This document shows, in pieces, positions 2,306 through 38,632 of a stretch of 59,515 nt of DNA. Positions within the stretch are counted from its first letter, which is position 1. Each line of letters begins with the position of its first letter. The position numbers and the translations under genes are program-made. A model generated the notes under the pieces. It was given only the letters and a program-made list of their open reading frames with translations. It was not told the origin of the DNA and ran no database searches. The DNA comes from a virus, in the IMG/VR virus record IMGVR_UViG_3300022699_000433, positions 1-59,515 of that record; one strand, 5' to 3'.

Positions 2306-2316
2306 TGCCCCTCTCC

Positions 2317-10437: not shown

Positions 10438-10440
10438 GAA

Positions 10441-13400: not shown

Positions 13401-14142
13401 CAAAGAGTTCGAATGTACGGTGGACAACGGTACTCACGCTGATTGCCGCGTCACGAGTACGCTGGGTTTGCGCCCAGGAGTCTGCGGAGGGATATATCTC
13501 TGGATAGAGGGAGTGCAGGACTGCACTCGCCCTTGATAGCCGTTGTGCGCCCTTGCGGACGAGCTGCCAATCCTGTCCGTGAATCTCCCTGCACGTGGAG
13601 ATGAACTGCTCCAACTTGTTCTCTGCTTCGAGCTCTATCTCCAGTTCAGCTAGGTCGAAATCCTCGGCGTAGCCGAGCTCCCTCAAGACACACGTATAAA
13701 TGAATTCCGCTATGCGTTGCGTAACCCGCCGGGTGTCCTGCTCCTTGCCGATGTCGAAGAGAATGACTTCCGTGGGGTACCGTGCATTGATAAGGTCTAT
13801 CAGATTCGCGACCTGCTCACCTTCGATCTGCTGTTTGAATAACGTTGCAAAGTCCTGTCCTAGAACCTTTCTATTCTCCAGGGCATATCCAAGGTTCTTA
13901 GCAAACGAACTTTTACCGGAGCCAAAGAATCCCGAAATCCAGACGCCCACGCTCTCATGAGGATCTGACGGGGCTTCTGCAATAGCGTTCAGGAGAACAG
14001 CATACTGATCCCGAATGCTGTCCGTAGCAATGTATTCGGTGATTTCCGAATACACTGACTGTTCATCGCTTTGATCGACCTGGATAATCTCTTCAATCGT
14101 CCGGCTCAGATCTCTCGAAAGGAGTTCGCCAATCGTTTTCAT
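10441..14142 (-). CDS. brxC: BrxC, large BREX ATPase
   Basis: 1233 aa from the preferred start. BrxC/PglY proteins are large P-loop ATPases required for BREX. Walker A GFFGSGKS is at residues 71-78 and a Walker B-like VIVIDEVGQ follows at about 260-268; the C-terminal half is rich in predicted coiled coil. An upstream in-frame ATG at 14166 is possible. I prefer 14142 because AAGGAG sits five bases before it and the protein then begins MKTIGELLSRDL, as in related BrxC. The upstream ATG overlaps the brxB stop. Confidence 0.94.
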   Translation of the reverse strand: MKTIGELLSRDLSRTIEEIIQVDQSDEQSVYSEITEYIATDSIRDQYAVLLNAIAEAPSDPHESVGVWISGFFGSGKSSFAKNLGYALENRKVLGQDFATLFKQQIEGEQVANLIDLINARYPTEVILFDIGKEQDTRRVTQRIAEFIYTCVLRELGYAEDFDLAELEIELEAENKLEQFISTCREIHGQDWQLVRKGAQRLSRASAVLHSLYPEIYPSADSWAQTQRTRDAAISVSTVVHRTFELFGRRRPGEALVIVIDEVGQHVARSGDKIEDLRATIEEFGKVGRNLLKARKIPAPCWIVVTSQEKLDEVVAAIDSKRVELAKLQDRFRYRVDLAPSDIREVATRRVLAKKGDALPILRKLYIENQGALNAALRLERTSRRTAVSEEDFIQFYPYPPHYIDIGISIMSGIRLQPGAPRHFGGSNRTIIKQAYEMLVSNRTNLAASPVGTLVTLDRVYELVEGNLSNERRTDIHEISERFTCLRAGTHRQEGEQDTDWTLRVAKAICLLEFVRDLPRTEANIAAFLIDEVGDPAPVAQVETAIKKLSDAQFIRNTEDGWKLQTAQEKNWETEKNTFDPKPRDRNEIVRNALRSIFSEPALRTYRHKDYRTFRTGITVDGTPVGDEGDIKMSVAMAEDDSGLSNRISEIRDESRQKNHENDLYWTFSLSPEIDELVAQLFASRKMVEKYDQLRAQSKISSEQATCLQDEKNLVLNFESRLRDKTTEVLEQGTGMFRGVAKDASSLGKNLGEIIKKFLEQIVPDLYRKLEMGSRALRGDEPDVFLKAADLKALPQVFYAGERGLGLVIKEGANYVPNQNADIAKEVRDYLIGQHEYGNREACLGKALEGRFNGTPYGWERDVLRLVLAVLFRAGVIEVSFGGQKFDSFTEPRSREPFINNTKFKSAIFTPIKPVDLKTLTQAVQSYEGLTGKTVDVEKNAIGAAAKEYADTESKEVIPIIAEAKARYLPVLPIVEEYGEALANIQNGSADDCVNLLAGGATSLKESRERLRKIAECLNEKGLATLKKARLAADEMSRVFEERGQDEIAAKGKELRELLESEAFFDSMGEIEAKAQEIETRYRELYQKTHHERAMQYQDAIEKIKGRPEWDQVPESMQEPVLSALTSRGCAEKDLSAVPAQAGFPETSLVCNACRAGVSQMESDIAALGGLFAKVVSEIQRLTTPPEVKIERVRISEHLSGSFESADQIRSAVARLQDYLLKLLNEGVKIVVE

Positions 14143-14158
14143 GTGCTCTCCTTGGCTA

Positions 14159-14740
14159 CTAGCCATATATTTTTACCCGATAGTTTCCCAATACATCACG
14201 CTCTTTAAGGGCCATAAACCGCAAGCCGGTTGTCCCTTCAATAGTACCTGGATAGAAAAGGATCGTGGTTAGTGATGTCTTGCCCTGCATCTGATCAAGC
14301 AACTTGGAGATGTGATAGATCCCAGGAGCCATTACTGCTGAGCGCAGCAGAAAAACAACTTGCATGGAGGGATTCAAATCTTGAAGGCGCTCCGTCAGGA
14401 GCTCTGCAAGAGGCCGCCAATCTCGGTCCGACAGATACGTGGTGATCTGCTCCTGGGCTGCAAGGAAGCCCCGCTCTTTTTCGAGGGCAACAACCGCCTC
14501 GATGCCTTCCGTATCCTCAATGGCCTTCCAGAGAAGATCCGACATGTGAATGATACCGGTATTTCTGTCCATATCTTCCAGCCGAGTAGCCAGCAACCGT
14601 GCTTCTCGACGAAGCGTCCATTCTTCCTCAGGGTCGTAGCGAAAGATGGCGAAGGGCAGATCGTGATACACGCTGATCCGAGGTGGCTCAGTCTTGAGGT
14701 CATCTTCAAGGATCTGTATTCGATCACCGAGCGATGACAT
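14159..14740 (-). CDS. brxB: BrxB, DUF1788 BREX protein
   Basis: 193 aa, matching the DUF1788 (BrxB) family in length and in blocks such as HDLPFAIFRYDPEEEW near the N-terminus and the hydrophobic VVFLLRSAVMAPGIYHIS stretch near residue 130. It has no recognisable catalytic motif; its molecular role in BREX is not well defined. It overlaps the end of brxA by 17 bases and ends just before the brxC start, so it is coupled to both. Confidence 0.9.
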   Translation of the reverse strand: MSSLGDRIQILEDDLKTEPPRISVYHDLPFAIFRYDPEEEWTLRREARLLATRLEDMDRNTGIIHMSDLLWKAIEDTEGIEAVVALEKERGFLAAQEQITTYLSDRDWRPLAELLTERLQDLNPSMQVVFLLRSAVMAPGIYHISKLLDQMQGKTSLTTILFYPGTIEGTTGLRFMALKERDVLGNYRVKIYG

Positions 14741-15542
14741 CTACGTACTCCTCAAGGGTGGTTGCTAAAAATGTCAGCCGGGTAACGCTCCCTGCCACAT
14801 GGTATTCAAGCAGGCCATGCTGATGGGCCTCCAACAGCAAGCGTTCAACCCATTCTCGATGAAGGAAGAACAACTTCCACTCAGCCAGGTCAAGGAGTTT
14901 CGTTCCTGATGGCTGATGCTGCTTTAAGTAAAACGCAATGTATGCGAATGCTTGAAGGGACAAGTAGGTTGGGGCAATGCGTTTTTTGACTTCTCCTTGA
15001 AGAACCCCAAAATCGCGAAGCGTTGCAAGCAAACCCTGAGTAACTCTACGAATGGTAGAGTCTCCCCAAGCGCCTGAGGTCTTACCGTCTTTGACCCATT
15101 CGGTCAACGTGTGCTCGACCTCAAGGACATCAATATCCATATTCCCCTTCGCCTGCTTAGGCACTAAATACTCTATGACCAAATCCTTGAGGAGCAAATC
15201 TGCGCGGGCGGAGTGAAAATAGAGAATCCGATCGACAGTGTTCCCATCAAATTGCCGTTTCACCAGAGTGGCTAAGGCCCTGGCAACAGCTTCTTCAGCA
15301 AGGTATCTTTGTCGGAAAATGGCAAGTATGTCCTCAGCCCTAGATCGAGAGGTTTTTCCGAGCAGGTTCTGGCTTCGCACGCGCTGGAGATTTTCATTGA
15401 CTGAAAGGCCAGAGTCCCAACAGGACAGAAGAGCCTTCGTGTCTGGCAGGAGTGCCCCAGCCTTTATGATCTTGCTGCTATATGGCTGCGAGACGGAATG
15501 GCCCTCCCCAACGGTATCCCTTTTGTCCTGGACCATAGTCAT
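14724..15542 (-). CDS. brxA: BrxA, DUF1819 BREX protein
   Basis: 272 aa, first gene of the BREX operon, DUF1819/BrxA family. Family members are small helical proteins related to the NusB-like inner-membrane DUF1819 group and have been reported to bind DNA. It starts at ATG 15542 (MTMVQDKRD...); a second ATG two codons later is equally possible. About 60 bases upstream the minus strand has TTGATA and TATAGA hexamers, but with poor spacing, so I do not call a promoter. Its position as the first gene before brxB and brxC is standard for type I BREX. Confidence 0.9.
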   Translation of the reverse strand: MTMVQDKRDTVGEGHSVSQPYSSKIIKAGALLPDTKALLSCWDSGLSVNENLQRVRSQNLLGKTSRSRAEDILAIFRQRYLAEEAVARALATLVKRQFDGNTVDRILYFHSARADLLLKDLVIEYLVPKQAKGNMDIDVLEVEHTLTEWVKDGKTSGAWGDSTIRRVTQGLLATLRDFGVLQGEVKKRIAPTYLSLQAFAYIAFYLKQHQPSGTKLLDLAEWKLFFLHREWVERLLLEAHQHGLLEYHVAGSVTRLTFLATTLEEYVDVIAR

Positions 15543-17649: not shown

Positions 17650-18705
17650 TCATTTGTGCTTTTTACTCTTGTTTTTAGGAATGGTAATGGCCGGCAGCAT
17701 CTCTACCGTGGAGCGAAGCAGGGTCATGTCGCTGTGCTGGTAGATGCGGGCGGTGGTATCGGGCCGGGAGTGGCCGAGGATGTCGGCTGTCGGCCGTGTG
17801 CCCCCTCCCATTGAAAGGATCGCAGTGGCAAAAGCGTGACGGAAGGCGTAGGGAGTAAGCTTGCGCCTGATGCCGGCTTTTTCTTTGGCTGTTCTAAAGC
17901 TTTTGATGATCCGGTTCACGGGCCTGCCGCGAAAGGTAATGATGGGACCTTGAGAATCAGCTGCTTGTCGACGCCATTTCTTGAGTTGTGCCGTTAACAC
18001 CGGGTGCAGCGGTGCCCTCCTGAAAACAGGTCCTCCCTTCCGGCTTGAGCGAATGAGGATGGTTCGCTCCTTAAAATCTACATCAGCCCAGGTAAGCTTC
18101 AAAAGTTCCGTGGCACCGGGCCGGATCCCTGTGTAATAGCTGATAACCAAAGCCTTGACCAGGTGCGGCGGGCAGTATTGCAATAACCGATTGATTTCAT
18201 CGAGGGTGGGAGGGTTAATGATCTCATCGTCCCTGGTCGGCTTTTTGTAGCCGGCGATAGGGTTGTGCATGATGTGCCGTCGGGATACCGCCCAGTTGAT
18301 GATAGCCTGGATGTCGGAGAGCTCCCGGTGCACGGTGGTGCGTTTTACACCCTGCTGCAGGCGCCTGGCCACATATTGATCCATGCGGCGCATCGTAAGC
18401 GCAAGTATATTGGCAGTGCCCAGCTCGGGGAGGATAACGCTTTTCAGTTTATAGTAAAGCGCATTGCTGCTGCTGGTGGCAAGCAGGCCTTGTTTAGCCT
18501 CCAGGTATTGGTTGGCAAGATCTTCGAAGGTGGGGGCGTATTCGCCGGGCGTGCGTTTTTGATAGGGCCTGAGATCGAGTTCGTCGTTTCGTTCGCGCGC
18601 CTTCCGCTCGCCCTCCAGGCCCCGTCCGAAATATTCCCATCTGACTTTGCCGTCTTCCCGGTGCACCACCGCCCAGCGGCCGTCTTTGCGAAGATGTACA
18701 GACAT
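17650..18705 (-). CDS. int: Phage tyrosine integrase
   Basis: 351 aa, full length for a phage integrase. It has an N-terminal arm-binding-like region, a core-binding SAM-like domain (about 55-155) and a catalytic domain with Arg195 (TGIRPGATE), Lys near 223, Arg289 in YAFRHAFAT, His312 in LGH and Tyr322 in IYQHS. The usual first His of box II is Tyr286, a tolerated variant. It lies 70 bases from the tRNA-Pro fragment and points toward it, so it is the enzyme expected to integrate the phage there. Confidence 0.93.
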   Translation of the reverse strand: MSVHLRKDGRWAVVHREDGKVRWEYFGRGLEGERKARERNDELDLRPYQKRTPGEYAPTFEDLANQYLEAKQGLLATSSSNALYYKLKSVILPELGTANILALTMRRMDQYVARRLQQGVKRTTVHRELSDIQAIINWAVSRRHIMHNPIAGYKKPTRDDEIINPPTLDEINRLLQYCPPHLVKALVISYYTGIRPGATELLKLTWADVDFKERTILIRSSRKGGPVFRRAPLHPVLTAQLKKWRRQAADSQGPIITFRGRPVNRIIKSFRTAKEKAGIRRKLTPYAFRHAFATAILSMGGGTRPTADILGHSRPDTTARIYQHSDMTLLRSTVEMLPAITIPKNKSKKHK

Positions 18706-23843: not shown

Positions 23844-23897
23844 ATGAAACGCATACGGGACTTCCGGAACTTTAAAAAGCAACAAAATGAGCAGTAA
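23844..23897 (+). CDS. Possible leader peptide before primase
   Basis: 17 aa, very basic (MKRIRDFRNFKKQQNEQ). Its TAATG stop/start overlap with the primase gene is typical of translational coupling, which is the only support. Confidence 0.3.
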   Translation: MKRIRDFRNFKKQQNEQ

Positions 23898-24619
23898 TGC
23901 CGAAACGAGTGTATGATCTATTCTTCGAACCGGGCGAGGTGGTGGAGATCCGCGCGTTCGGCCTCGCCGGCAAAAACAGGGCCTGGCAGGACTATGCCCG
24001 GAAAAACGCCGCCGTTTCAGGCTACTTTAATAATGCCGAGGACTTCGCCCGCAGCGCCCAGGCCCTGGAGGTCGCCAAGGCGACCGGGGTGTATTTCACC
24101 CTCAACCCCTGTGATCCTTCCCTGCTTGCCCGGGCCAATAACCGCCTCGTGGCACAGCCGAAAGCCACCACCAGCGACCAAAATATCAAGTGTCTGCGGT
24201 GGCTGCCCATTGACCTGGATCCCAAGCGGCCATCGGAGATCAGCGCCACCGACCAGGAGATAAAAGAAGCCGAGACCCTCGCCCGCGACATTACCCACTG
24301 GCTGGAGGGAGACCTGGGTTTTTCCAGGGGTATTAGGGGCTTTTCGGGCAATGGGTACCACATCGTGTACCGTCTGCCGGATCTGCCCAACGACGATGAG
24401 CACAAAGGGCTGATCAAAAAGGCACTCCAGGCGATTGAGGAGAAATTCCGGAACACCAACGTCCTGGTCGACCTCACCGTGTTCAACCCGGCCCGGATCT
24501 GGAAACTTTACGGGACCACCGGCAGGAAGGGCGATTCAACCCCCGATCGGCCGCATCGCAAAAGCTACCTCTTTTCTGAGCAGGCGGCCACGTTGTCGGA
24601 GGTGGAGGTGACCGTGTGA
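23897..24619 (+). CDS. Archaeo-eukaryotic-type (AEP) primase
   Basis: 240 aa. PIDLDPKRP places the metal-binding DLD at residues 106-108, SGNGYHI the His at 155, and VDLTVFNPARIWKLYGT the third acidic residue (Asp192) and nucleotide-binding Arg/Lys. This is the catalytic core of the prim-pol/AEP superfamily found in phages and plasmids. It should make primers for phage DNA replication and is coupled by a four-base overlap to the helicase, the usual partner. Confidence 0.85.
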   Translation: MPKRVYDLFFEPGEVVEIRAFGLAGKNRAWQDYARKNAAVSGYFNNAEDFARSAQALEVAKATGVYFTLNPCDPSLLARANNRLVAQPKATTSDQNIKCLRWLPIDLDPKRPSEISATDQEIKEAETLARDITHWLEGDLGFSRGIRGFSGNGYHIVYRLPDLPNDDEHKGLIKKALQAIEEKFRNTNVLVDLTVFNPARIWKLYGTTGRKGDSTPDRPHRKSYLFSEQAATLSEVEVTV

Positions 24620-26451
24620 ACCTGGAACAGCTGAAGCAGCTGGCCGCCATGGCTCCCGTGGAGGAGTCCCCCTATCCCCCCGCCCCCGCGCAAGGACCGA
24701 AGACCGCTTCCAGACGAGGCGAGGTCCGGCCTATGGAGAACACCCTCGGCACCCTTGAGCTGGGGGCGTACCTCACCCACTACGGCATCGACTACAAGAC
24801 CAAGCAGCAGGGTGCGCTGACCCTCTATCTACTCAAAGAGTGCGTCTTCGATCCCAACCACAGCCCCTACGAGGCCTCTATCTGCTATTCCCCTACCCCG
24901 CCGTTTCTGACCTACCAGTGTTTTCATCAAAGCTGCCGGGGCAAGACCTGGAAAGAAGCCCGGCGGGCGATCTCGGGCGCTGATTCGCTGGCCCCTTTCT
25001 GCGCCAACTACGATCCCCAGTGGAAGCAAAAGAAATCGGAGCTCGGTACCCGGTTGATGGTCGACCTGGATATCGGCCCGGTGGACCCTTTAGAGACAAG
25101 GAGTGATATCATGGTGCACGGACAACCCCTGCCCCCTCCGCGGGAAATAGACCCCCTGGAGTTCTTTGATCTGCGGGGCAAACGACCCCAGTTCGTCGAG
25201 AACTGGATGGCGAAGTACCTGGCCGCCCAGCTCGGACCGATCTGCTACACCGAGGGCGTGTATTGGCGCTATGAGGGAGGCGTGTGGAAGGAGTTTCCCC
25301 AGGAGGTGATCAGGCAGACGGCCCAGCAGGCCATGAAAGACAGAGTCAAGTCCACCTACATCGACAACAGCATGAAGATCCTGGCCGCCCTGGTGAAGCG
25401 CACCGAGGCCCAGTGGACGACCGACGACCGGTATGTCAACTGCAGAAACGGCATGGTGGACCTCAAGGAGGCCGCGCTCCTGCCGCATGACCCGGCCTAC
25501 CGGAGCAGGACCCAGATTCCCTGCAACTTCGACATGAACGCCACCTATGACCGGTGGCTGCGGTTCCTGGAGGAAGTGTTTCCCGAGGATGACCAGAAAA
25601 AGCCCGGCGAGCTCGGCAAGGCGGATCTGCTCCAGCAGTTCTTCGGCTATTGCCTGCTCGGTGACTGCCGGTACCAGAAGGCCTTGTTCTTATACGGGGT
25701 GGGTGCCAACGGCAAGAGTACGGCCATCAATGCCCTCATCTCCGTTTTGGGGATCGAGAACACCTCCACGCTCACCATCGAGGACATGTCGGAGCGGTTC
25801 ACCACCCATTTCCTCCAGGGGAAGCTCCTCAACTTCGCCACCGAGACCAACACCCGAAACCCCATGGACACCGAGAAGTTCAAGGCTGCGGTGCGGGGCG
25901 ATCCCCTGAAGGCCGAGCGGAAGTACGGCTCTCCCTACAACTTCTCACCCACGGCCAAGTGGGTGGTGGCCATGAACGAGGCCCCGGTCATCCCGGATAA
26001 GACCCCGGGGTTCACCCGGAGCATCATCGTGCTCGAGTTCAAGCACCGATTCGTGGGCGGCGAGATCGACTACGGCCTCGGCGAGAAGCTGGGCGCAGAG
26101 CGGGACGGGATCTTCATGTGGACCCTGTTCGGCCTGGAGCGGCTGCTCAAGCGAAACGGCTTTGCTATTCCCTCCAAGGTCGAAGAGGAAGGCCGGGAGT
26201 TTATGCGGGCGCTGAACCCCTTGCTGCTCTTTGTTGATGAGGAATGCACTATGGGACCCCAGGAGGAAGTAGGAAGCACCGAGTTCTACAATCGGTATAA
26301 GGAGTGGTGCAGCGACGGGCACAACCGGCCGCTCAGCAGGAACAAGTTCGCCGACCAGATCCTCATGCACTGGCCGGAAGTGACCAAGGGATGGATTGGA
26401 GAGACGACGCAAAGGAAACGTGGCTTCAAGGGGATAGGGTTAAAAGTCTAA
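24616..26451 (+). CDS. D5/P4-type SF3 replicative helicase
   Basis: 611 aa from GTG. The N-terminus (about 35-120) holds Cys/His residues (ECVFDPNH, CYSP, CFHQSC) suggesting a zinc-binding primase-associated domain. The D5_N region follows, then SF3 Walker A GVGANGKST near residues 361-369, motif B around LLNFATETN, and motif C in WVVAMNEAP. A poxvirus D5-like C-terminal domain ends the protein. With the AEP primase it forms a primase-helicase pair; a likely origin lies 220 bases downstream. Confidence 0.88.
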   Translation: MNLEQLKQLAAMAPVEESPYPPAPAQGPKTASRRGEVRPMENTLGTLELGAYLTHYGIDYKTKQQGALTLYLLKECVFDPNHSPYEASICYSPTPPFLTYQCFHQSCRGKTWKEARRAISGADSLAPFCANYDPQWKQKKSELGTRLMVDLDIGPVDPLETRSDIMVHGQPLPPPREIDPLEFFDLRGKRPQFVENWMAKYLAAQLGPICYTEGVYWRYEGGVWKEFPQEVIRQTAQQAMKDRVKSTYIDNSMKILAALVKRTEAQWTTDDRYVNCRNGMVDLKEAALLPHDPAYRSRTQIPCNFDMNATYDRWLRFLEEVFPEDDQKKPGELGKADLLQQFFGYCLLGDCRYQKALFLYGVGANGKSTAINALISVLGIENTSTLTIEDMSERFTTHFLQGKLLNFATETNTRNPMDTEKFKAAVRGDPLKAERKYGSPYNFSPTAKWVVAMNEAPVIPDKTPGFTRSIIVLEFKHRFVGGEIDYGLGEKLGAERDGIFMWTLFGLERLLKRNGFAIPSKVEEEGREFMRALNPLLLFVDEECTMGPQEEVGSTEFYNRYKEWCSDGHNRPLSRNKFADQILMHWPEVTKGWIGETTQRKRGFKGIGLKV

Positions 26452-26674
26452 TGATTCAGTGAGGAATAAAGGACAGTATCGTCTGCTTCTGGGCTTCCCT
26501 CTCTCTTGCATTTTTCTAATGACCGATTTGAGGGTGTGAGAATGAAAAAGGTGCACGTTTTTGAACTATCTTCTTGCATGGATTTGCCTAATGAGAACGG
26601 AACTATAGGAATTCCTGAAAACCCGCGCCCCTTCTGCGTTTTGTAATTTTGACCAACCAAAAAGTGAATAAAGC

Positions 26675-26820
26675 GGTGCACGTTCTGCACGTTCTGCACG
26701 GTTTTTTTCTATTTTATTTTTTCTGTGTACTTCATTTGATCGCGCATAGGTATAAAAATACAAAGTAAAAAAATAGATTAAGATAGGTAAAAAGCGTGCA
26801 GAACGTGCAGAACGTGCACC
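26675..26820. repeat. Perfect 26-bp inverted repeat of 9-bp iterons: putative replication origin
   Basis: The left arm (26675-26700) begins GGTGCACGTTCTGCACG and the right arm (26795-26820) is its exact reverse complement. Each arm contains a 9-base unit (GTGCAGAAC or its complement) repeated head to tail. The 94 bases between are strongly AT-rich with A and T runs. A further single copy, GGTGCACGTTTTTGAAC, is at 26550. Iterons flanking an AT-rich segment next to a primase-helicase pair are what a phage/plasmid origin would look like; protein binding is inferred. Confidence 0.75.
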
Positions 26821-27247: not shown

Positions 27248-27328
27248 TGACTGTCAAAGAATATCCTTTACATCATTATATGAATGATGGTAATATCAGC
27301 CCGAAATGGAGGTTTTCTTTGACAGTCA
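27248..27328. promoter_or_regulatory. Nested inverted repeats upstream of the recombinase, candidate recombination site
   Basis: TGACTGTCAAAGAA at 27248-27261 is inverted perfectly at 27315-27328. Between them is a second dyad, CATCATT (27271) and AATGATG (27283). Serine resolvases act at sites made of inverted subsites next to their own gene, so this 81-base stretch ending 19 bases before the ATG is a candidate res-like site or autoregulatory operator. Confidence 0.55.
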
Positions 27329-27347
27329 CTGGAAAGGGAGACAAAAC

Positions 27348-27947
27348 ATGGCAAAAGTCACAGCATACATCCGGGTGAGCAGCGACAAGCAAGACGTCGA
27401 GAATCAGCGTCTTGAGATCCTCAAGCTGGCCAACGAACAAGACCTCGGTTCAGTCACCTTCATCGAGGAGACCATCTCCGGGAGAAAGTCCTGGCATGAG
27501 CGTAGGCTTGCCCAGGTGATCGAAGAGCTCAAAGAAGGCGATGCGCTCATCGTGGCCGAGCTCTCCAGGCTCGGGAGATCCATGTTGGAGATCATGGAAA
27601 TCCTCAGTATGGCCACCCAGCGGTATATCAAGGTCTACGCCTCCAAGGGCAACTGGCAGCTCGACGGATCGATGCAGTCCAAGATCATCGCCATGGTCCT
27701 GGCCATGGCAGCCGAAATAGAGCGGGATTTGATATCGCAGCGCACCAAAGCGGCCCTGGCCACCAAGAAGGCAGCCGGCGTCAAGCTGGGAAGACCTTCC
27801 GGGCCTGGCAAGTCCAAGCTTGATCCCCGGAAAGATGAGATCCTGGAGCTCCTGGAACTCGGGGTAACAAAAAAGAGAGTAGCCCAAAAGATGGAAACCA
27901 ACGTCGGTAATTTAAATCATTGGCTGAAGAAGCGGGCCTTGGGGTGA
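27348..27947 (+). CDS. Serine recombinase (resolvase/invertase family)
   Basis: 199 aa from ATG 27348, preceded by GGGAGA; an upstream ATG at 27306 lies inside the inverted repeat. YIRVSSDKQDVENQR carries the nucleophilic Ser near residue 10, ELSRLGRS the conserved Arg region, and AAEIERDLISQRTKAALATK the E helix; a short helix-turn-helix ends the protein. It may resolve multimers of the phage genome or invert or excise DNA. It lies between the putative origin and the cargo region, which fits a plasmid-like replicon stage. Confidence 0.88.
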   Translation: MAKVTAYIRVSSDKQDVENQRLEILKLANEQDLGSVTFIEETISGRKSWHERRLAQVIEELKEGDALIVAELSRLGRSMLEIMEILSMATQRYIKVYASKGNWQLDGSMQSKIIAMVLAMAAEIERDLISQRTKAALATKKAAGVKLGRPSGPGKSKLDPRKDEILELLELGVTKKRVAQKMETNVGNLNHWLKKRALG

Positions 27948-30378: not shown

Positions 30379-31137
30379 ATGAAAAATAATTTAATAAAAT
30401 CAATTGAGGTATTCATAGAGCAAATTGTAGAATGCCGAGATAAATGGACAACCAAAGGAAGGCCGTGGTTCAGAGGCCAAAGAATAGATAGGCCATTACT
30501 TCCCCGATTATTCAGAGAACATTATGATGAGAATGAACTTGTTCAGATATTTAGGATGAAAGCTCCTATGCTATATGAAACACCAAATAAAAGCGAATGG
30601 GATAAATGGCTGTGCCTTATGCAGCATTCAGGTGCCCCCACAAGATTACTTGATTGGACAGAAGGAGCGTTGATTGCCTTATATTTTGCAATATATAAAT
30701 TTAACAAAAAAAACAGTAAACCTGTTGTATGGATGATGGACCCATTAATCCTTAATCAAATATCAATTGGTCAATTGATATACCCGCTTTCATTTTCTGG
30801 GCCGGGAATAAAAAATTTTCATTATGCATTTGAGAAAAGTTTAGACGCCTACGAAAAACCGGTAGCTCTTTATCCTGTAGAAGTCCATATAAGAATGAGT
30901 GTCCAAAAGAGTTGTTTCACTATACATGGAATTGACAACCGTAGTATAGAAGAGATTTTCTCTAATACTCATTTATTAAAGGAGAATTATTTAGTTAAAT
31001 TTAACATAGATATTAATTCTTGCGAAGAAATGTTGTCTATATTGAAGACCCTAGGCATTTCCCATTCCACTCTTTTCCCCGACATTGACGGTCTTGGATT
31101 TGAATTATCACAATATAAAATGATTGAAGCCAATTGA
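30379..31137 (+). CDS. FRG-domain protein
   Basis: 252 aa. WFRGQRIDRPLLPRLFRE near residues 27-44 and LMQHSGAPTRLLDWTEG near 80-96, followed by ALYFAIY, are the conserved blocks of the FRG domain. This small family is frequent on mobile elements and in candidate defence loci, with no settled activity. The protein consists mainly of the domain. It is AT-rich and follows attC-like site c by 70 bases; I found no attC after its own stop. Confidence 0.8.
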   Translation: MKNNLIKSIEVFIEQIVECRDKWTTKGRPWFRGQRIDRPLLPRLFREHYDENELVQIFRMKAPMLYETPNKSEWDKWLCLMQHSGAPTRLLDWTEGALIALYFAIYKFNKKNSKPVVWMMDPLILNQISIGQLIYPLSFSGPGIKNFHYAFEKSLDAYEKPVALYPVEVHIRMSVQKSCFTIHGIDNRSIEEIFSNTHLLKENYLVKFNIDINSCEEMLSILKTLGISHSTLFPDIDGLGFELSQYKMIEAN

Positions 31138-31423
31138 GATGAAAAAATTACGATTTCTGCTATATTAGTAGCCACAGATATTTAGGTATTATCATTCAGC
31201 TCATAAGAAAATCAATTTCTGCAAATTAAAGAATACGATAAAGATTAATGAAATATATCGATATTCAAGTGTGATTATCCTATTCTTGAGTTACAACCAG
31301 CTTTTACGTATCAATCATATCAGAAGTAATCATTAGCGACACCGCAACATATTGTATAGCCCGGATCACGGCCAAAAGCTGCGATCACTGCTATATAGGG
31401 CAGTTTTCTTTTCAGCCTTGAAA

Positions 31424-31487
31424 CCTGAGATTTCCACTGGAAACCTGAAAATATCAGCCACCCCAAACCCCTGTGATCTGTCTGCCC
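31424..31487 (+). repeat. Dispersed repeat, copy 2
   Basis: About 64 bases matching 16229-16291 at roughly 55 positions. Being inside the prophage cargo while copy 1 lies on the other side of the attachment site suggests a genome-wide repeat of this host, captured with the cargo. Confidence 0.7.
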
Positions 31488-31589
31488 CATCCGGATTGTG
31501 TCTCTCATTGCCGGTAGTCTGCGATTTTGGGCAAGAATCAATAACACTGAATTTATGAGCGAGCTCCTCGCTGGCGAATACGTTAACTA

Positions 31590-31639
31590 AATGATATTCA
31601 AAGATCTCTGGTCTGTTCTCAAGTCTGGATCGTGGCAAG
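31590..31639 (+). repeat. 50-bp direct repeat, right copy
   Basis: 46 of 50 positions identical to 28285-28334, same orientation. The two copies are 3.3 kb apart. Confidence 0.8.
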
Positions 31640-31826
31640 GTGTCTTAAACTAAAACTTATCAATTTTCACTACTCAAAATCTTTCATCTAGATTGTATGT
31701 GCCTTTTCTATGGTGGGATTTTACTAATATGTTGTTGTCTTTCTCTCTTCTATTTCTCCTCTACTCCACCACTACGCCCGCCTCGCCCTCTCTCGCTTTG
31801 CTCGCTCGGCCCGTATTGAGATTTGT

Positions 31827-32516
31827 TTAAGGTGAATGATCTGTTGCAGAAATTCTTATCTTTTCCTTTGCTTTTTCAAAATCGTCTGTGCATCCACCAT
31901 TCCATTCAATATAAAAATATTGAGAATTAGATTTAGCGTTTTCCGCAAATACTTTTATTTCGAAACAATATTTTCCGGGACCAAATGCAGATCTTTGGCC
32001 AGTAGTGGGAGATTCATCCGAAAGAATGAATTTATCAGGATGCGTAGTCCTGAACATGCCAAGAGCAAATTGATAGGGCTTTCTAGGTATTAAATTTCTT
32101 TCACCTCCACCTCCAAAAGCCCACAGGAGATTTTTTGGAAGCCAATTTATGTCTTTTACCCACTTCCCCGCCTTATTATCCCATACAGATAGTATTACTG
32201 GTTGGCAGCTGTTAGCCAGTGTTTTGCCGTTATTAATGAGGGGTATAGTAATCGGATAACTAAATCCAGCTTGTTCGTTTTTTCTATTGAGTAATGGTGC
32301 TTGCCGAAAATATGGAGGCTCTTGTTCAAATGGCATGAATTCCAAGATAGGACGGTTAAACCGGATAAGTATCCCTTGTTGAAAAACAGCCCAAACAACC
32401 GCAGAGACAGTACCTATAGCCGCCATTGCTATCCAAAATAAACGACCGAAACATATTGCACCAACCACAATTATAGCAAGAATTAGTATAACTGATCCGA
32501 TTATGATTGCAGTCAA
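31827..32516 (-). CDS. Membrane-anchored hypothetical protein
   Basis: 229 aa starting at TTG 32516, with TTGGAG eight bases upstream. Two adjacent N-terminal transmembrane helices (MTAIIIGSVILILAIIVVGA and LFWIAMAAIGTVSAVVWAV) lead to a soluble beta-rich domain of about 170 residues with Trp, Gly and Tyr. That layout suggests a membrane anchor with a sensor-like domain on one side. No family recognised. It converges on the FRG gene. Confidence 0.55.
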   Translation of the reverse strand: MTAIIIGSVILILAIIVVGAICFGRLFWIAMAAIGTVSAVVWAVFQQGILIRFNRPILEFMPFEQEPPYFRQAPLLNRKNEQAGFSYPITIPLINNGKTLANSCQPVILSVWDNKAGKWVKDINWLPKNLLWAFGGGGERNLIPRKPYQFALGMFRTTHPDKFILSDESPTTGQRSAFGPGKYCFEIKVFAENAKSNSQYFYIEWNGGCTDDFEKAKEKIRISATDHSP

Positions 32517-32700
32517 TCGTTTGCTCCAACACTCTTTATAGATTCTCTACCCCCCGGCCGGTCACAAGACTCGGGACGCTATGTCCCTCTCGAAATGCTC
32601 CAATGCAAAAGTCATTCGTACCTGGTTGAATCCGATCCTACGAAGCAACATGATATAAAACGGCGAGCGAGTAATTCCTTTTTACGGGATTGATCTAATC

Positions 32701-33642
32701 CTATTTTTCTTTTCTGTGGATCTTATCGTGACAAACCGTGCAAAGGGTTATTAAGTTATCTTTGATGTTCTCACCGCCTTTCACGTGGTGCTTGACATGA
32801 TGCAATTCCAAATGCCGAGGATCCGAGGGATTCCATTCTTTATGCATCCAGCCGCATTCACGGCACTTATATCCATCGCGACGCAGGACCTCTCTTCTGA
32901 CATCATCGGGAATATGTCGATCATGTTCCGGACTCCGCCGATCAGCCTGCAGGACATAAATCCCGATGCCTAAATCAGGCCGACCGGTTGATTTTGTCAC
33001 CACCGGCCAACCAAATTCCGTGCGAAGCTCACGCACACGCCGCGCCCATTCCGTTTTATCCCCGGCGACGTAGCGCAGTTCTTCCCCGGTGACTCCAACC
33101 CCCACATTCGCCCGGAGAAAGCTCAGGATTTTGTCACGCACGGAACCGGGTTGCTTGCGGATCGTGTTCGCGATATTCCACCGTAAAGCCGCTTCACGGT
33201 CCTGTTCGGCGGTGAGCAGCACGTACTGACTGGGTTTCATGGTCTTGAATTCGGACGGCACTTCCGCATCCTCGGCTTCGCCCATCTCAGTAATTGTGAC
33301 GCCGCTCGCGATCGCCCAGCCGAATTGAACTCTGAGCTCGCGTACCCGCCTCGCATATTCCTGAATACCGGCAACGACAAGTAATTCGTCCCCGTCAATA
33401 ATGGTCCGGGGATACTTGCGGAAGTAGTAAAGAATTCGCTCCCTTGCCGATGCAGCATATTCGACCGGGATCAATGACTTGCCCAGGTCGCGCAATCCGT
33501 GAAAGATCGGAACCAAAGCAAGTACTTTTACCCGAAGTTCTCCCGATCGAAGTTCCGCTTCGAAATTTCTGATCAGCTCTTCGACTCTACTCCGAACGGC
33601 TTCGGTTTCTATCTGTTTCCGCTTGCTTCCCCTGCTTGTCAT
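32701..33642 (-). CDS. HNH endonuclease with duplicated N-terminal module, probable restriction enzyme
   Basis: 313 aa. Two repeats of about 48 residues (about 65-112 and 165-214) share the pattern VAG---E-ARRVRELR--FGW, so the N-terminal part is an internal duplication that may form a DNA-recognition pair. The C-terminus is an HNH nuclease with CRECGW at 260-265, HLELHHVKHH at 278-287 and CTVCHDKIH at 301-309. It overlaps vsr by 56 bases and follows the C5 methyltransferase, which makes it the best candidate for the restriction partner. Confidence 0.8.
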   Translation of the reverse strand: MTSRGSKRKQIETEAVRSRVEELIRNFEAELRSGELRVKVLALVPIFHGLRDLGKSLIPVEYAASARERILYYFRKYPRTIIDGDELLVVAGIQEYARRVRELRVQFGWAIASGVTITEMGEAEDAEVPSEFKTMKPSQYVLLTAEQDREAALRWNIANTIRKQPGSVRDKILSFLRANVGVGVTGEELRYVAGDKTEWARRVRELRTEFGWPVVTKSTGRPDLGIGIYVLQADRRSPEHDRHIPDDVRREVLRRDGYKCRECGWMHKEWNPSDPRHLELHHVKHHVKGGENIKDNLITLCTVCHDKIHRKEK

Positions 33643-34045
33643 CTAAGAATCTTTCCAGCTTCCGCAACAGTTTTGCAGGCCTCCGGGTTTCGCATTCCCA
33701 GACTACCAGCACTTTCCATCCCATGCGCCGCAATGTCCGTTGGAATCGCTTATCGCGGTTCATGGTTTGATCAAGTTTCTTGTTCCAAAAGTCCGTATTC
33801 GTTTTCGGGCGCTTTGATCGCGAGCAACCCTTGTGCCCGTGCCAAAAGCAGCCGTGCACGAAAATCACCTTGCCGTGCCGCGGCAAAACAATATCCGGAT
33901 TGCCCGGAAGATCGCGTCGATGAATCCGAAACCGAAATCCCATGCGATGAACGAACGATCGAACCACGATCTCCGGCTTTGTATCGCGCCCCTTGACCCG
34001 ACTCATGATCCAGCTGCGCTTCTCCTTTGAGAAAACATCGGTCAT
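33587..34045 (-). CDS. vsr: Very-short-patch mismatch endonuclease Vsr
   Basis: 152 aa. RSWIMSRVKGRDTKPE at the start, then FRIHRRDLPGNPDIVLPRH with the catalytic Asp, FVHGCFWHGHKGC and a conserved C-terminal W-VLVVWECE match Vsr. It repairs T:G mismatches arising by deamination of 5-methylcytosine made by the adjacent methyltransferase. One base separates it from the dcm-like stop, so the genes form an operon. Confidence 0.93.
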   Translation of the reverse strand: MTDVFSKEKRSWIMSRVKGRDTKPEIVVRSFVHRMGFRFRIHRRDLPGNPDIVLPRHGKVIFVHGCFWHGHKGCSRSKRPKTNTDFWNKKLDQTMNRDKRFQRTLRRMGWKVLVVWECETRRPAKLLRKLERFLDDKQGKQAETDRNRSRSE

Positions 34046-34046
34046 T

Positions 34047-35285
34047 TCACCGGTCGTTCATCGTTAGAAGCAGGTACACAACATCGGCAACGCGGGCGGC
34101 GAGCAAAGGGGGGACTGCATTACCGATCTGTTTTGCAATCTCGATTTTTGTGCCGGCAAAAGAAAAATCATCGGGGAACGTTTGGAACCGCGCGGCTTCT
34201 CTGTGTGTAATCGGTCGATGTTGTTGCGGATGAAGATATCGGCCCTTTTCGGGCTTGAAGAATTCCGTCCGGATCGTAAACGCCGGTTTATCCCACCACA
34301 GCCTTCCAAATAGATCCGTACCCCCGGTTTTTTTCCGTATCCAGCAGTCCGGCGTAAGATCGGGGGCGATTCGCTGTAAGTCAAACCGATTCATCCCTTC
34401 GGCCGGTACGGCTCTGTATCTTTTCCGGCTCAATTCGGTCGGGTTGCGGCCGAAATGTAGATCCAACGGAGGCTCGGCACTTGTGATTTCAGTTCCTTCG
34501 GGAAGAGGCAAGTCACCTATAGCATCTCTAACGGTTTTCCATTTTTCACAATTCGGCATGTGATTATTGTCGTGATTAAAAAAAGAGCTCGGTTGAACGC
34601 TGTTTCCGTTTGGATTGTAATGAGTTTTCCTGGGAGGAAACAATATTGCAGGATCAGCAAATTTGCATCCTATGATAAAGGCGCGAATGCGTGTTTGAGG
34701 GACACCGTAATCGGCGGAAAGGAGCTTGGCCTGCCAAACCTTGAAACCTAGAGATTTCGCCATTCCGACAATCTCGTCGTGCTCAAAGGTACCTAATAGA
34801 TAAGGAACATTTTCCATAACAAACACGGAAGCCCCGGCCCGATCAACTATCTCAAAAAAAGGTCTCCATAATTCTTTTCTTGGATCGTTCTCTCGATTTT
34901 TGTTCAAAAGACTGAAGCCTTGACAGGGAGGCCCTCCAATCACCACATCGGCTTCCGGAATTTCAAGCTCACTATCATCTAAAAACTCGATTATATCGCC
35001 AAAGACACAGTGCCCACCAAAATTTTTGTTATAAGTATCGACACAAAATTTATTATTATCGTTGGCCCAAATCGGCTTGAAGAGGTGACCGAAACGCTCC
35101 GAAAATCCCAATGACATCCCGCCTGCGCCAGAAAAAAGGTCGATAAGGTGAAAGTTTGTCTCCTTTTTTAAGAGATCACCGGCACAGCGAGCTTCGTAGA
35201 TTTCCTCATCCTTTCTCAGGATATGATTTCTATCAATGTTTATCGCATTATCGGTTAAGGGCATCCCGACCCGTATTTCATTCAA
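34047..35285 (-). CDS. C5-cytosine DNA methyltransferase
   Basis: 412 aa with start TTG 35285 (alternative ATG 35264). Motif I DLFSGAGGMSLGF near residue 48, motif IV GGPPCQGFS with the catalytic Cys, motif VI ENVPYL, motif VIII QTRIRAFIIG and motif X QIGNAVPP are all present in order. A target-recognition region of about 110 residues lies between VIII and X. It protects DNA against a cognate restriction enzyme, most likely the HNH protein downstream. The recognition site cannot be read from the sequence. Confidence 0.93.
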   Translation of the reverse strand: MNEIRVGMPLTDNAINIDRNHILRKDEEIYEARCAGDLLKKETNFHLIDLFSGAGGMSLGFSERFGHLFKPIWANDNNKFCVDTYNKNFGGHCVFGDIIEFLDDSELEIPEADVVIGGPPCQGFSLLNKNRENDPRKELWRPFFEIVDRAGASVFVMENVPYLLGTFEHDEIVGMAKSLGFKVWQAKLLSADYGVPQTRIRAFIIGCKFADPAILFPPRKTHYNPNGNSVQPSSFFNHDNNHMPNCEKWKTVRDAIGDLPLPEGTEITSAEPPLDLHFGRNPTELSRKRYRAVPAEGMNRFDLQRIAPDLTPDCWIRKKTGGTDLFGRLWWDKPAFTIRTEFFKPEKGRYLHPQQHRPITHREAARFQTFPDDFSFAGTKIEIAKQIGNAVPPLLAARVADVVYLLLTMNDR

Positions 35286-35594
35286 GAGATATTAAATTAG
35301 TCAAAACGTCCTGCTTCACCGTTTACAATATCTAGTTTATGCTATTAAGGATTACACCAATATATTGTATAAGGTCAATATTAAAATCGATTGAATCTAT
35401 ATACTATAGATAGACCATCCGTCCTCTATTAGTTAGGCGCTCAGTCGAGTCATTACGTCTCACCCGATAGAGGATTCTCAAAATATTTGCTGAGAGCCTC
35501 AACAGCGATTTCCTCCGTTGCCTCGCCCGCTTTGCCGCTTCACGGTGGAGGAATGCGACCAGGATCTCTGGCGAGGGATTGCGCGCTCAGTGCG
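35286..35594. other. Gap between GIY-YIG gene and methyltransferase
   Basis: No complete gene. A closed minus-strand frame ending at 35453 encodes a plausible protein tail (EEIAVEALSKYFENP), so a broken gene is possible. GTTAGGC at 35432-35438 has the form of a cassette core site, but no pairing arm is visible, so I do not call an attC here. Confidence 0.4.
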
Positions 35595-36479
35595 CTATTC
35601 CTCGTCGCTGTCCATGTCATTGTTGGCCGTCTCCTTTTGTTCCAGTTCTTTTAGGCTAACTCCTTTCTCGTTCTTCCATGCGATGAGTCCGTTTGCGTGG
35701 CCGCCATGGATGACCGAGGCGGCGGCGCTGGGACTTGAGAATTCATAGTCTTTTGCGAAAACAAGCCTATCTGTTTCTTTGGTGAGAGTGCCTTCGGAGA
35801 GGAGTTGAGAACGGACAGTCGAAGGATATGGATACTTCTTGACGGAAGGCCGTTCTTCAAGAACAGCCTCTGATCCCTTTAGAACAAGAAAGCCGTTCTC
35901 TGTTGGCCGACCACTTGCCTTTACCATCTTGATGGTGCAGGTCAATAGTTCAGAGGGTGTAACCGGCAGGGAGAGCTTGACGACGGGCTTGAGAAAATCC
36001 TGTCCAAGGACTGGTAGTAGTTGCTCAACCTTTGCCAAGAACACATTCATGTCTGCCGCATCGGACTCAGGAAGGTGGGATCCGCTTGCGTTCGTGTTTT
36101 CCAACTCAAACCGGTCTGCCGCCTTCGTCATCTCGATAAGTTTACCTTCAAGGTATTTGATGTGGGCCTTGGTGAGGTTTTCGTCCTTGCTGACGAAGAA
36201 AATGACGGTCTTCCAAAAATCCCGATCGAAATGCCCCTTCAGCCTTGATCCGACGATTTCGGCCTCACCGACGTAGACCCTCGGCTTCCCCGTTTCGGCG
36301 TTTATTCCGGTCAGAAAGTAGATCCCCGGCTTCTTCGCTTCCTCTCGTTGCAGGACCAGCTCTAGCTGTGACCGTGGGCCTGCCACAGCTTTACCTGTCC
36401 AATTCGATATTTCCGCTGTTCTAATGGAGGCCGGATCACCTTCCGCCAAAAATATCTTTACCGTTGCTGTCTCTTTCAT
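35595..36479 (-). CDS. GIY-YIG nuclease-family protein with DUF4357
   Basis: 294 aa from ATG 36479, preceded by AAGGAGAGAT; a longer start runs into attC-like site b and is rejected. KPGIYFLTG near residue 50, then KPRVYVGEAE and RLKGH, form the GIY-YIG fold with the usual Arg region. The C-terminus (FSSPSAAASVIHGGHANGLIAW and following) is DUF4357. This architecture is widespread on mobile elements; nuclease targets are unknown. The start is 11 bases after the attC-like core, as in a typical integron cassette. Confidence 0.85.
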   Translation of the reverse strand: MKETATVKIFLAEGDPASIRTAEISNWTGKAVAGPRSQLELVLQREEAKKPGIYFLTGINAETGKPRVYVGEAEIVGSRLKGHFDRDFWKTVIFFVSKDENLTKAHIKYLEGKLIEMTKAADRFELENTNASGSHLPESDAADMNVFLAKVEQLLPVLGQDFLKPVVKLSLPVTPSELLTCTIKMVKASGRPTENGFLVLKGSEAVLEERPSVKKYPYPSTVRSQLLSEGTLTKETDRLVFAKDYEFSSPSAAASVIHGGHANGLIAWKNEKGVSLKELEQKETANNDMDSDEE

Positions 36480-36489
36480 ATCTCTCCTT

Positions 36490-36613
36490 GGCCAACGCTC
36501 TGCTTCACAGGGCACAAAAGGTATGCGGACTGTAGGCGCAGTGCGTTTAATGATGAAGCTATTTTTGCCAAAGCCGCCCGCCTTTTGTTCTCCTGTGCAA
36601 GCGGTTGTTATGT
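36490..36613 (-). other. attC-like site b (long, VCR-sized)
   Basis: 124 bases on the minus strand from ACATAAC to GTTGGCC. The 5' arm CCGCTTGCACAGGAGAACAA and the complement of the 3' arm (CTGCTTCACAGGGCACAAAA) pair along about 25 positions with unpaired extra bases. The length is like the repeats of the Vibrio superintegron. It starts four bases after the 268-aa gene's stop and ends next to the GIY-YIG ribosome site. Confidence 0.8.
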
Positions 36614-36617
36614 AATT

Positions 36618-37424
36618 TTATTTGAGTATTCTAACAATCTCGCCCAATAGAACATCTATATCATTTGAAAAATTAACCTGTGTCGTATTTGGAAGAGATT
36701 CTTTTCTCCTAATTTGTGTATGCAAATGTTGGTCTGCAATTTTTCTTGATGAATTTTCAAGATGCTGCATAGATTCTTTGAAAGATCTCGAGCCGCCATA
36801 ATTATTAGCTACTTCCAGAAATGTTTTATATGAAAAAATGGGCGGAACATGATCAAGCAAAACCCTTGTCAGTGTGATAATAGAAATATTACACTGGTTT
36901 TTGTAACACGTATTTAATTCTTCCAGAATTTTGATCAGCCGCGATAGATCAAAATACGTAGCTGCAATTTCTTTCAACTCCTCTAAGCGTGATCTATCCA
37001 CGTATTGCCGGTCTTGTGATGTGTCATTTGATGACTCACCATTTTGTTTGATTTTCAATCGTAGTTCTTTCTGAAGAATTGAGACCAAATTATTGGTCCT
37101 ATCCATATCTGGAGTATCGCAGGTAATAAACAAATCGCCATGATATCTTGATTCTATATAGATTACAGAAGAACCATCGCTTTTAGGGTAATAGCTGAAC
37201 AAAAGGCAGGAAACGGCATTATGATTTATTTCTGAAATGGCGTCCAAGTCATTCCAACCTAAATTTTTTGTTTCACTAATTCCATTAGCATGATTAAGAT
37301 GTGCAGTTAAGGAACACTTCTTTTCATCAATACCCAGAAAAATTGGCAGTTGCTTGAAGGCGTTTTTTATTTGACCCGGTTTAAAGGTAATTGGATGGTA
37401 AAATCTTGAAAGACTTGCACTCAA
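36618..37424 (-). CDS. Cassette-encoded protein of unknown function
   Basis: 268 aa from TTG 37424 with AGGAG eight bases before it. No catalytic motif is evident. The C-terminal 100 residues (TRVLLDHVPPIFSYKTF..., SMQHLENSSRKIADQHLH, LLGEIVRIL) resemble a domain I have seen in hypothetical proteins of many bacteria, helical and often next to defence genes, but I cannot name it. The gene is bounded on both sides by attC-like sites a and b, so it is a complete single-gene cassette. Confidence 0.65.
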   Translation of the reverse strand: MSASLSRFYHPITFKPGQIKNAFKQLPIFLGIDEKKCSLTAHLNHANGISETKNLGWNDLDAISEINHNAVSCLLFSYYPKSDGSSVIYIESRYHGDLFITCDTPDMDRTNNLVSILQKELRLKIKQNGESSNDTSQDRQYVDRSRLEELKEIAATYFDLSRLIKILEELNTCYKNQCNISIITLTRVLLDHVPPIFSYKTFLEVANNYGGSRSFKESMQHLENSSRKIADQHLHTQIRRKESLPNTTQVNFSNDIDVLLGEIVRILK

Positions 37425-37452
37425 ATCATTTCTCCTAAATACTGAGTATTAG

Positions 37453-37520
37453 ACATAACGCCGAATTAACCGGCAGCCGGGCGCTCTTTTCCGGCTGTCC
37501 GGTTGAATGAGATGTTATAT
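37453..37520 (-). other. attC-like site a (short)
   Basis: 68 bases on the minus strand from ATATAAC to GTTATGT. Inner arms AACCGGACAGCCGG and CCGGCTGCCGGTT pair with one extrahelical A, and the flanks (CATTCAACCGG and CCGGTTAATTC) closely resemble the aadA-cassette attC (CATTCAAGCC and GGCTTAATTCAAGCGTTAG). It follows the 66-aa gene and precedes the unknown 268-aa gene. Confidence 0.85.
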
Positions 37521-37560
37521 GGCATTTATTTATCTCTCAAAATCTGTGTTTAAATTCTCA

Positions 37561-37761
37561 CTATTGAATATATTCTTGATAATATTGACAGTTTCTGCAA
37601 TAAGCCCGAGCCTTTTCAACCTCCGGTAAGGTGACTGTATCAAGATCCTCACCTGACTTTTTTTCGTGCCAAAGAAAGGCTCTATTAACAATATCCTGTT
37701 TTGGGCATCGCTTCTGCATAAAGGGCAAACAAGTTAGCCATCGGTCTTCATTTTCTTGCAT
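37561..37761 (-). CDS. Small cysteine-containing hypothetical protein
   Basis: 66 aa from ATG 37761, chosen because AAGGAG precedes it by six bases; a longer frame would overlap the HNH gene. Cysteines occur as CLPF, CPKQ and CRNCQYY, giving a possible metal site. It is the last gene before attC-like site a. Confidence 0.55.
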   Translation of the reverse strand: MQENEDRWLTCLPFMQKRCPKQDIVNRAFLWHEKKSGEDLDTVTLPEVEKARAYCRNCQYYQEYIQ

Positions 37762-37792
37762 TTTGGACTCCTTCCATAAACTGTCCCCATGA

Positions 37793-38632
37793 TTATATCT
37801 TATCCGCTTTCTCCCTGTTACAATGCTCACACAATATTTGAATATTCCTTTCGGTATTGCTTCCCCCTTTTGAAAGTGGGATTATATGATCAAATTCCAA
37901 ATTTTCTTTACTGCCGCATTTGACACATTGCCCACCATCCCTTCTCCAAACAAACATCCTGACGCTTTCGGATATTGGCTCTCTGGATATTCCTGTTTCA
38001 GACGCTAATCGTTCAATTATTTCTAGTTCCTTTTGGAATTTCTCAAGCTTTTTCTGCTCTCTTACGTAATACTTTTTTATTATTAACTTCTGGTCTTCTT
38101 CGCTATGAATATCAGCGGTATTAAAATAGTAAAGATTATCTTTGTATATATAGAACGTAAATACACTAAATGTTTCTGCTATTTCTCGCTTCTTATCATC
38201 TATTTTATTTCGCGCGACTTCCACCCTCTCTTCAAATTTAGCCAAAGCTTCTCCATATTTATCTTGGGCTCTTTCATTTTTGTCATCGTCTCTCATGCTC
38301 GCGAGCAGTTTTCTTTCCTGAAGGTTATCATATGCTCTATTCCAAGACGAAGACGTGGGAGAGGGAAGATTTTCAGGCACATAAGTATGATGAAAGGCGG
38401 GCCGACTGGGGGGCACATTTGGAATTTTGATGTTGCTACAGTCGATATCCGATAAAATTCCAGTGATAGGTTGTGGTTCATGCATTTGGTTATTACAAAC
38501 TTCGTGTAAAGGCTTCGCTGAGGAAAACAAGATTGAGCATGGGCGTCCACATATTTTTATTGTGATCTGATCAAACTTTTTTTTCTTATCTCCCGGTTTA
38601 ATAAATCCCCTGCTTAAAATTTTCAACGCCAT
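37793..38632 (-). CDS. HNH endonuclease-domain protein
   Basis: 279 aa with TAGGAGG upstream. A long charged coiled-coil-like middle (about 95-200, rich in Lys/Glu) leads to a C-terminal HNH domain with CVKCGSKENLEFDHIIPLSK near 240-260 and ILCEHCNREK at the end. It probably cuts or nicks DNA. It could be a defence nuclease or a mobile nuclease; no partner gene settles this. The 66-aa gene follows 31 bases later. Confidence 0.8.
   Translation of the reverse strand: MALKILSRGFIKPGDKKKKFDQITIKICGRPCSILFSSAKPLHEVCNNQMHEPQPITGILSDIDCSNIKIPNVPPSRPAFHHTYVPENLPSPTSSSWNRAYDNLQERKLLASMRDDDKNERAQDKYGEALAKFEERVEVARNKIDDKKREIAETFSVFTFYIYKDNLYYFNTADIHSEEDQKLIIKKYYVREQKKLEKFQKELEIIERLASETGISREPISESVRMFVWRRDGGQCVKCGSKENLEFDHIIPLSKGGSNTERNIQILCEHCNREKADKI

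Follow-up and report, generated by a model that had tools for sequence, protein, structure and literature searches.

Immediately 3′ of a primase gene and a helicase gene, the viral DNA analysed here carries a perfect 26-bp inverted repeat. Is this repeat the origin of replication of the element, as a sequence-only reading of the window (the whole stretch of 59,515 nucleotides) had proposed, or does it serve the neighbouring genes in some other way?

The repeat and its setting

Inspection of the sequence and a repeat search both confirmed that the two arms, at 26675-26700 and 26795-26820, are exact reverse complements, and that they are built from tandem 9-bp iterons. Each arm contains two exact copies of GTGCAGAAC and a third, partial unit (GTGCAC). 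In the left arm the iterons lie on the minus strand (26682-26690 and 26691-26699), with the partial unit at the outer end; in the right arm they lie on the plus strand (26796-26804 and 26805-26813), with the partial unit at 26814-26819. The intervening core (26701-26794; 94 bp) is A+T-rich, as had been described, with 78% A+T between the innermost iterons. It is T-rich on the left, A-rich on the right and roughly symmetric, and is the putative melting site. The dyad can be extended to arms of 58 nt (26675-26732 and 26763-26820) with 83% complementarity, and a lone outlying iteron-like copy, GGTGCACGTTT, was found by the repeat search at 26550-26560.

No other inverted repeat of 18 nt or longer within 400 bp is present in the window, and the longest perfect inverted repeat, which is 26 bp here, reached 11-14 bp in 30 dinucleotide shuffles. 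The decamer GTGCAGAACG occurs eight times with no more than one mismatch in the 59.5-kb window, against 2.9 occurrences expected, and all four of its exact copies are within the two arms. The left arm begins 224 bp past the helicase stop codon (26451) and the recombinase gene starts at 27306, so the position given in the earlier reading was also correct. As the ORFs overlapping the repeat region match no Pfam family, the region is probably non-coding. No Rfam family or tRNA was found in the window, and GC skew did not switch at the repeat, although in a mosaic temperate phage this measure carries no information.

The upstream gene (23897-24619, plus strand) encodes an AEP-type primase with the motifs DLD, SGNGYH and NPARIWKLYGT and a weak match to PriS. 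It overlaps by 4 bp the separate gene for a 611-residue D5/SF3 (P4-family) helicase (24616-26451, plus strand), in which D5_N, DUF5906 and a C-terminal Pox_D5 domain were recognized and which matches the P4-family primase C-terminal model TIGR01613 above its cut-off. Among solved structures, a profile of 23 homologues matched the SaPI5 primase-helicase most strongly (E=1.7e-48), and the C-terminus of the profile weakly matched an RFX winged helix. The best PDB match of the AlphaFold model (mean pLDDT 84) was also the SaPI5 primase-helicase (E=1.8e-23), and the terminal strand-helix-helix-strand-strand element of that model is read here as a winged helix. This predicted C-terminal domain (Pox_D5, RFX-like) comprises residues 534-599, encoded at 26215-26412 on the plus strand.

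From left to right, the window contains a BREX system, a tyrosine integrase gene (17650-18705), a gene for an HTH protein, the primase and helicase genes and the repeat; these are followed by a serine recombinase gene, a restriction/modification-like block, and genes for a terminase and a major head protein. With an integrase and phage structural genes, the element therefore looks like an integrating temperate phage, and the simplest view is that the window holds a temperate phage or provirus together with host DNA beside it. That the element is itself a PICI was ruled out by its matches to a terminase large subunit and a major head protein, as it is not a satellite. No DNA-level match to the region from 18.5 to 40 kb was found in the phage collection.

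Two further gene blocks were observed in the window. The BREX system (278-15542; brxL, pglZ, pglX, brxC, brxB and brxA) adjoins the phage integrase and has an extra Schlafen/AlbA-like gene (4908-6311) inside it. The interval between the recombinase and the terminase (30379-38632) is likely a phage-borne defence or cargo block: it holds an FRG-domain gene, a cytosine-5 methylase gene, a PDC-S14 candidate defence gene and two HNH genes, one of which resembles a type II restriction enzyme.

Recurrence of the layout after D5 helicases

Exact-peptide searches with the window helicase returned no relatives from viral or genome contigs, and an exact search of the IMG/VR viral contigs with the 23-bp iteron array gave only two matches. 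One of these (L004) lies in a prophage, just past a D5 helicase gene, where it belongs to that prophage's own inverted arrays of the same iteron. The other (L003) falls inside an ORF and was judged to be a chance match. An alignment of AEP primases used as the query yielded 74 loci from viral contigs and 80 from genome contigs, with the best in Desulfobacterota and many in Methanomicrobiales, and the AcaML1 helicase yielded a further set of 80 viral loci.

A detector of exact 7-mer arrays picked up only one of 73 AcaML1-like loci. The iterons of these loci are degenerate, and a mismatch-tolerant inverted-repeat score was therefore used instead, with the layout defined as a score of 14 or more in the 500 bp that follow the helicase stop codon (thresholds that were set after examples had been seen). 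By this measure the layout was found in 63 of the 73 AcaML1-like loci, in 10 of 23 window-like loci encoding an AEP primase and a D5 helicase, in 6 of 15 other such loci and in 5 of 10 other D5 loci. It was found once in 744 shuffles and once in 124 in-gene stretches of the same length. The loci are related, so these counts are not independent trials, and distinct arms were used to determine the period: the autocorrelation of 40 distinct arms has a single peak, at 9 bp, where it reaches 0.49, and the null did not exceed 0.33.

Recurrence of the layout after D5 helicases does not depend on the next gene, and the layout is also present in archaeal elements and plasmids. In five Methanomicrobiales loci (L186, L187, L189, L195 and L196) it follows a D5 helicase and encloses cores of ~60-70 bp that share TTTCCGG. 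Six loci with close relatives of the window helicase (L100, L101, L103, L173, L174 and L175; 36-49% identity by tblastn) lacked an array of this kind over the few kb inspected, and the position or form of the array is therefore not universal. In one of the six, L101, the gene directly after the helicase looks ParB-like by eye.

Iterons, the helicase C-terminus and the function of the repeat

Covariation between iterons and helicase was measured in the AcaML1-like relatives, whose helicases are distant from that of the window (~29% identity). The arms agree at 96% within a locus and at 78% between loci. Among the 25 helicase columns most strongly associated with iteron class, 22 fall within the last 90 residues, a stretch with 58 of the 368 variable columns in the alignment. 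On a tree from which the last 130 helicase residues were left out, eight branches carry a change at iteron position 6, and a winged-helix residue, the 42nd from the C-terminus, changes on all eight as well. This residue is K where iteron position 6 is G, and mostly R where it is C; the two correspond in 64 of 69 loci. Eight columns share at least five branches, all of them in the last 46 helicase residues. In the window helicase, the covarying K/R aligns with N576, in a predicted helix at residues 575-585. Synonymous sites over the final 60 codons and in the next gene also co-change with the iterons to some extent, so part of the covariation can come from the exchange of a short linked block. 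Whether by covariation or by block exchange, the recognition domain and the iterons travel together.

The adjacent primase and helicase, the recurrent layout, the 9-bp period, the matched arms and the covariation in relatives all support the proposed origin. We put the probability at about 0.9 that the repeat serves a temperate phage as its replication origin, at which the helicase winged helix would bind the iterons, opposed rings would melt the core and the AEP enzyme would prime. By analogy with the PICIs (PMC6092414) and Cch2 (PMC7581432), the D5/SF3 helicase of the window phage would be expected to use its C-terminal winged-helix domain to grip the 9-bp iterons and to assemble as two hexameric rings on the inverted arrays. 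Because the two arrays point opposite ways, these rings would face each other across the A+T-rich core and could melt it; priming by the AEP primase, whose gene lies just upstream, would follow, and host or other phage polymerases would extend, probably bidirectionally. The earlier suggestion of plasmid-like replication can thus be kept loosely for initiation, in which the phage is probably similar to PICIs and pRN plasmids, but not for episomal maintenance, of which there was no sign in an element with an integrase and structural genes.

The arms are perfectly complementary and might matter by pairing, as a stem-loop or cruciform, rather than through their iterons. An origin of this structural kind has been proposed for pRN1 and BIP-1, and pRN1 mutations that alter the stem-loop abolish replication (PMC4234260). 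Pairing alone, however, does not require the 9-bp tandem period seen in the 40 distinct arms and in the pRN family, nor the extra iteron copies found beyond the paired arms in the window and in four relatives (L004, L112, L176 and L177), nor the covariation of iterons with winged-helix residues. A loop of 94 nt also makes a plain hairpin unattractive. A purely structural origin is therefore unlikely, although the iteron-based and structural accounts can both be partly true.

The gene that follows the repeat (27306-27947, plus strand) encodes a serine recombinase closest to the Mpi DNA-invertase family, at a score below the cut-off of that model. A recombinase gene also follows the helicase in three related loci (L176, L177 and L106) and is dispensable for the origin layout. 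The dimer resolution that had been suggested for it found no support, given its likeness to Mpi invertases, a promoter-like site of its own and the occurrence of the layout where no recombinase was found; nothing was found that ties the recombinase to origin function. A perfect 14-bp inverted repeat, TGACTGTCAAAGAA, with 53 bp between its copies (27248-27328), flanks the promoter-like site and may be either an operator or part of an invertible promoter; the recombinase promoter region is similar in L176 and L177 but lacks this repeat.

Inverted repeats are often bound by dimeric repressors, and an initiator may regulate its own gene, which would favour the 26-bp repeat being an operator or another regulatory site for its neighbours. 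Against this, no promoter-like site was found overlapping the arms, that of the recombinase (27267-27296, in a region similar in L176 and L177) is ~450 bp beyond the repeat, and the layout follows D5 helicases regardless of the next gene; we regard a regulatory site as very improbable. That the adjacent serine recombinase uses the repeat as a res or inversion site is scarcely credible: the gene pairing in the three related loci would suit such a site, but the layout is present in AcaML1-like phages, pRN plasmids and Sfi21, where a recombinase search gave no match in those loci that it covered, and serine recombinase sites do not usually consist of long inverted arrays of tandem 9-bp units.

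Comparison with known origins

As an origin, the window repeat most likely belongs to the type represented by PICI origins, the P4 crr and pRN1. Two origins that are published or annotated in their records, those of pRN1 and Sfi21, were used as controls, and both have the layout.

The pRN1 origin was defined by deletion and relocation as a 100-nt stem-loop, in which no iterons were said to be identifiable (PMC4234260). The pRN1 arms TTATGTCCATAGTGTCCAACT nevertheless contain TGTCCA twice, 9 bp apart and inverted between the arms. The same period is present in the arms of pRN2, pHEN7 and pDL10 and in one arm of pSSVx, and the 9-bp value of the family was not reached in 2000 shuffles. The window resembles the pRN1, BIP-1 and BPP-1 type in that a long inverted repeat lies just downstream of an AEP primase and an SF3 helicase with a winged helix. 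It differs from pRN1 in its dimensions (26-bp arms and 94 bp between them, against 21-nt arms and a 58-nt loop) and in its separate primase and helicase genes, which are fused in pRN1, and it differs from pRN1/BIP-1-type origins as described, i.e., as stem-loops without iterons (PMC4234260).

The PICI origins have two sets of iterons around an A+T-rich region 3′ of rep and are functional in a plasmid (PMC6092414). The window likewise has opposite iteron sets flanking an A+T-rich region immediately 3′ of the initiator gene (224 bp after the helicase stop), and its P4/D5-type helicase, with a predicted C-terminal winged helix (TIGR01613, Pox_D5 and the SaPI5 match), is homologous to the SaPI5 primase-helicase. 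The iteron sequence differs from that of PICIs and SaPIs, as does the division of primase and helicase between two genes. The Streptococcus PICI Javan598 fits the layout; in the PICI Javan418 no array was found with either detector. Cch2 of SCCmec, a related helicase, binds iterons downstream of its gene, at a putative origin, through its C-terminal domain (PMC7581432). That site is unlike the window in that AAGTG direct repeats are required for binding and the flanking inverted repeats are dispensable for it (PMC7581432).

The record of the P4 crr annotates repeats with 9-bp spacing and opposite orientations 3′ of alpha, which is also a D5/P4-family helicase. P4 is distinguished by a duplicated 120-bp crr, a separate ori and the Toprim-type primase of alpha (PMC4234260). 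The annotated origin of Sfi21, a phage of Streptococcus thermophilus, lies at the 3′ end of a D5-type gene and consists of inverted tandem repeats around an A+T-rich core; it differs in its 8-bp period and in belonging to a Gram-positive dairy phage.

It seems fairly probable to us that PICI origins, the P4 crr, the pRN/BIP-1 ‘stem-loop’, the dairy-phage origins and the window repeat form one class, in which inverted arrays of 8-9-bp iterons, bound by a helicase winged helix, enclose a melting core, and in which, in bacteria and archaea alike, recognition helix and iterons form a short specificity unit that changes together and can be exchanged. If so, two published statements would be overturned: that pRN1 has no iterons, and that the PICI layout occurs in no other bacterial replicon (PMC6092414). 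The latter is contradicted by the loci surveyed here, with the older literature on dairy phages and P4 covered in part and a prior description possible. Such a class would provide a simple rule by which to locate the origins of the many phages, satellites and plasmids with D5/SF3 helicases, namely mirrored 9-bp repeats just past the helicase gene. The covariation would be a starting point for a readable code between winged helix and origin, which could help to explain how related replicons coexist without cross-talk. A class of this kind would also join the iteron model of PICIs and P4 to the stem-loop model of pRN1 and BIP-1, each of which could then be tested against the other.
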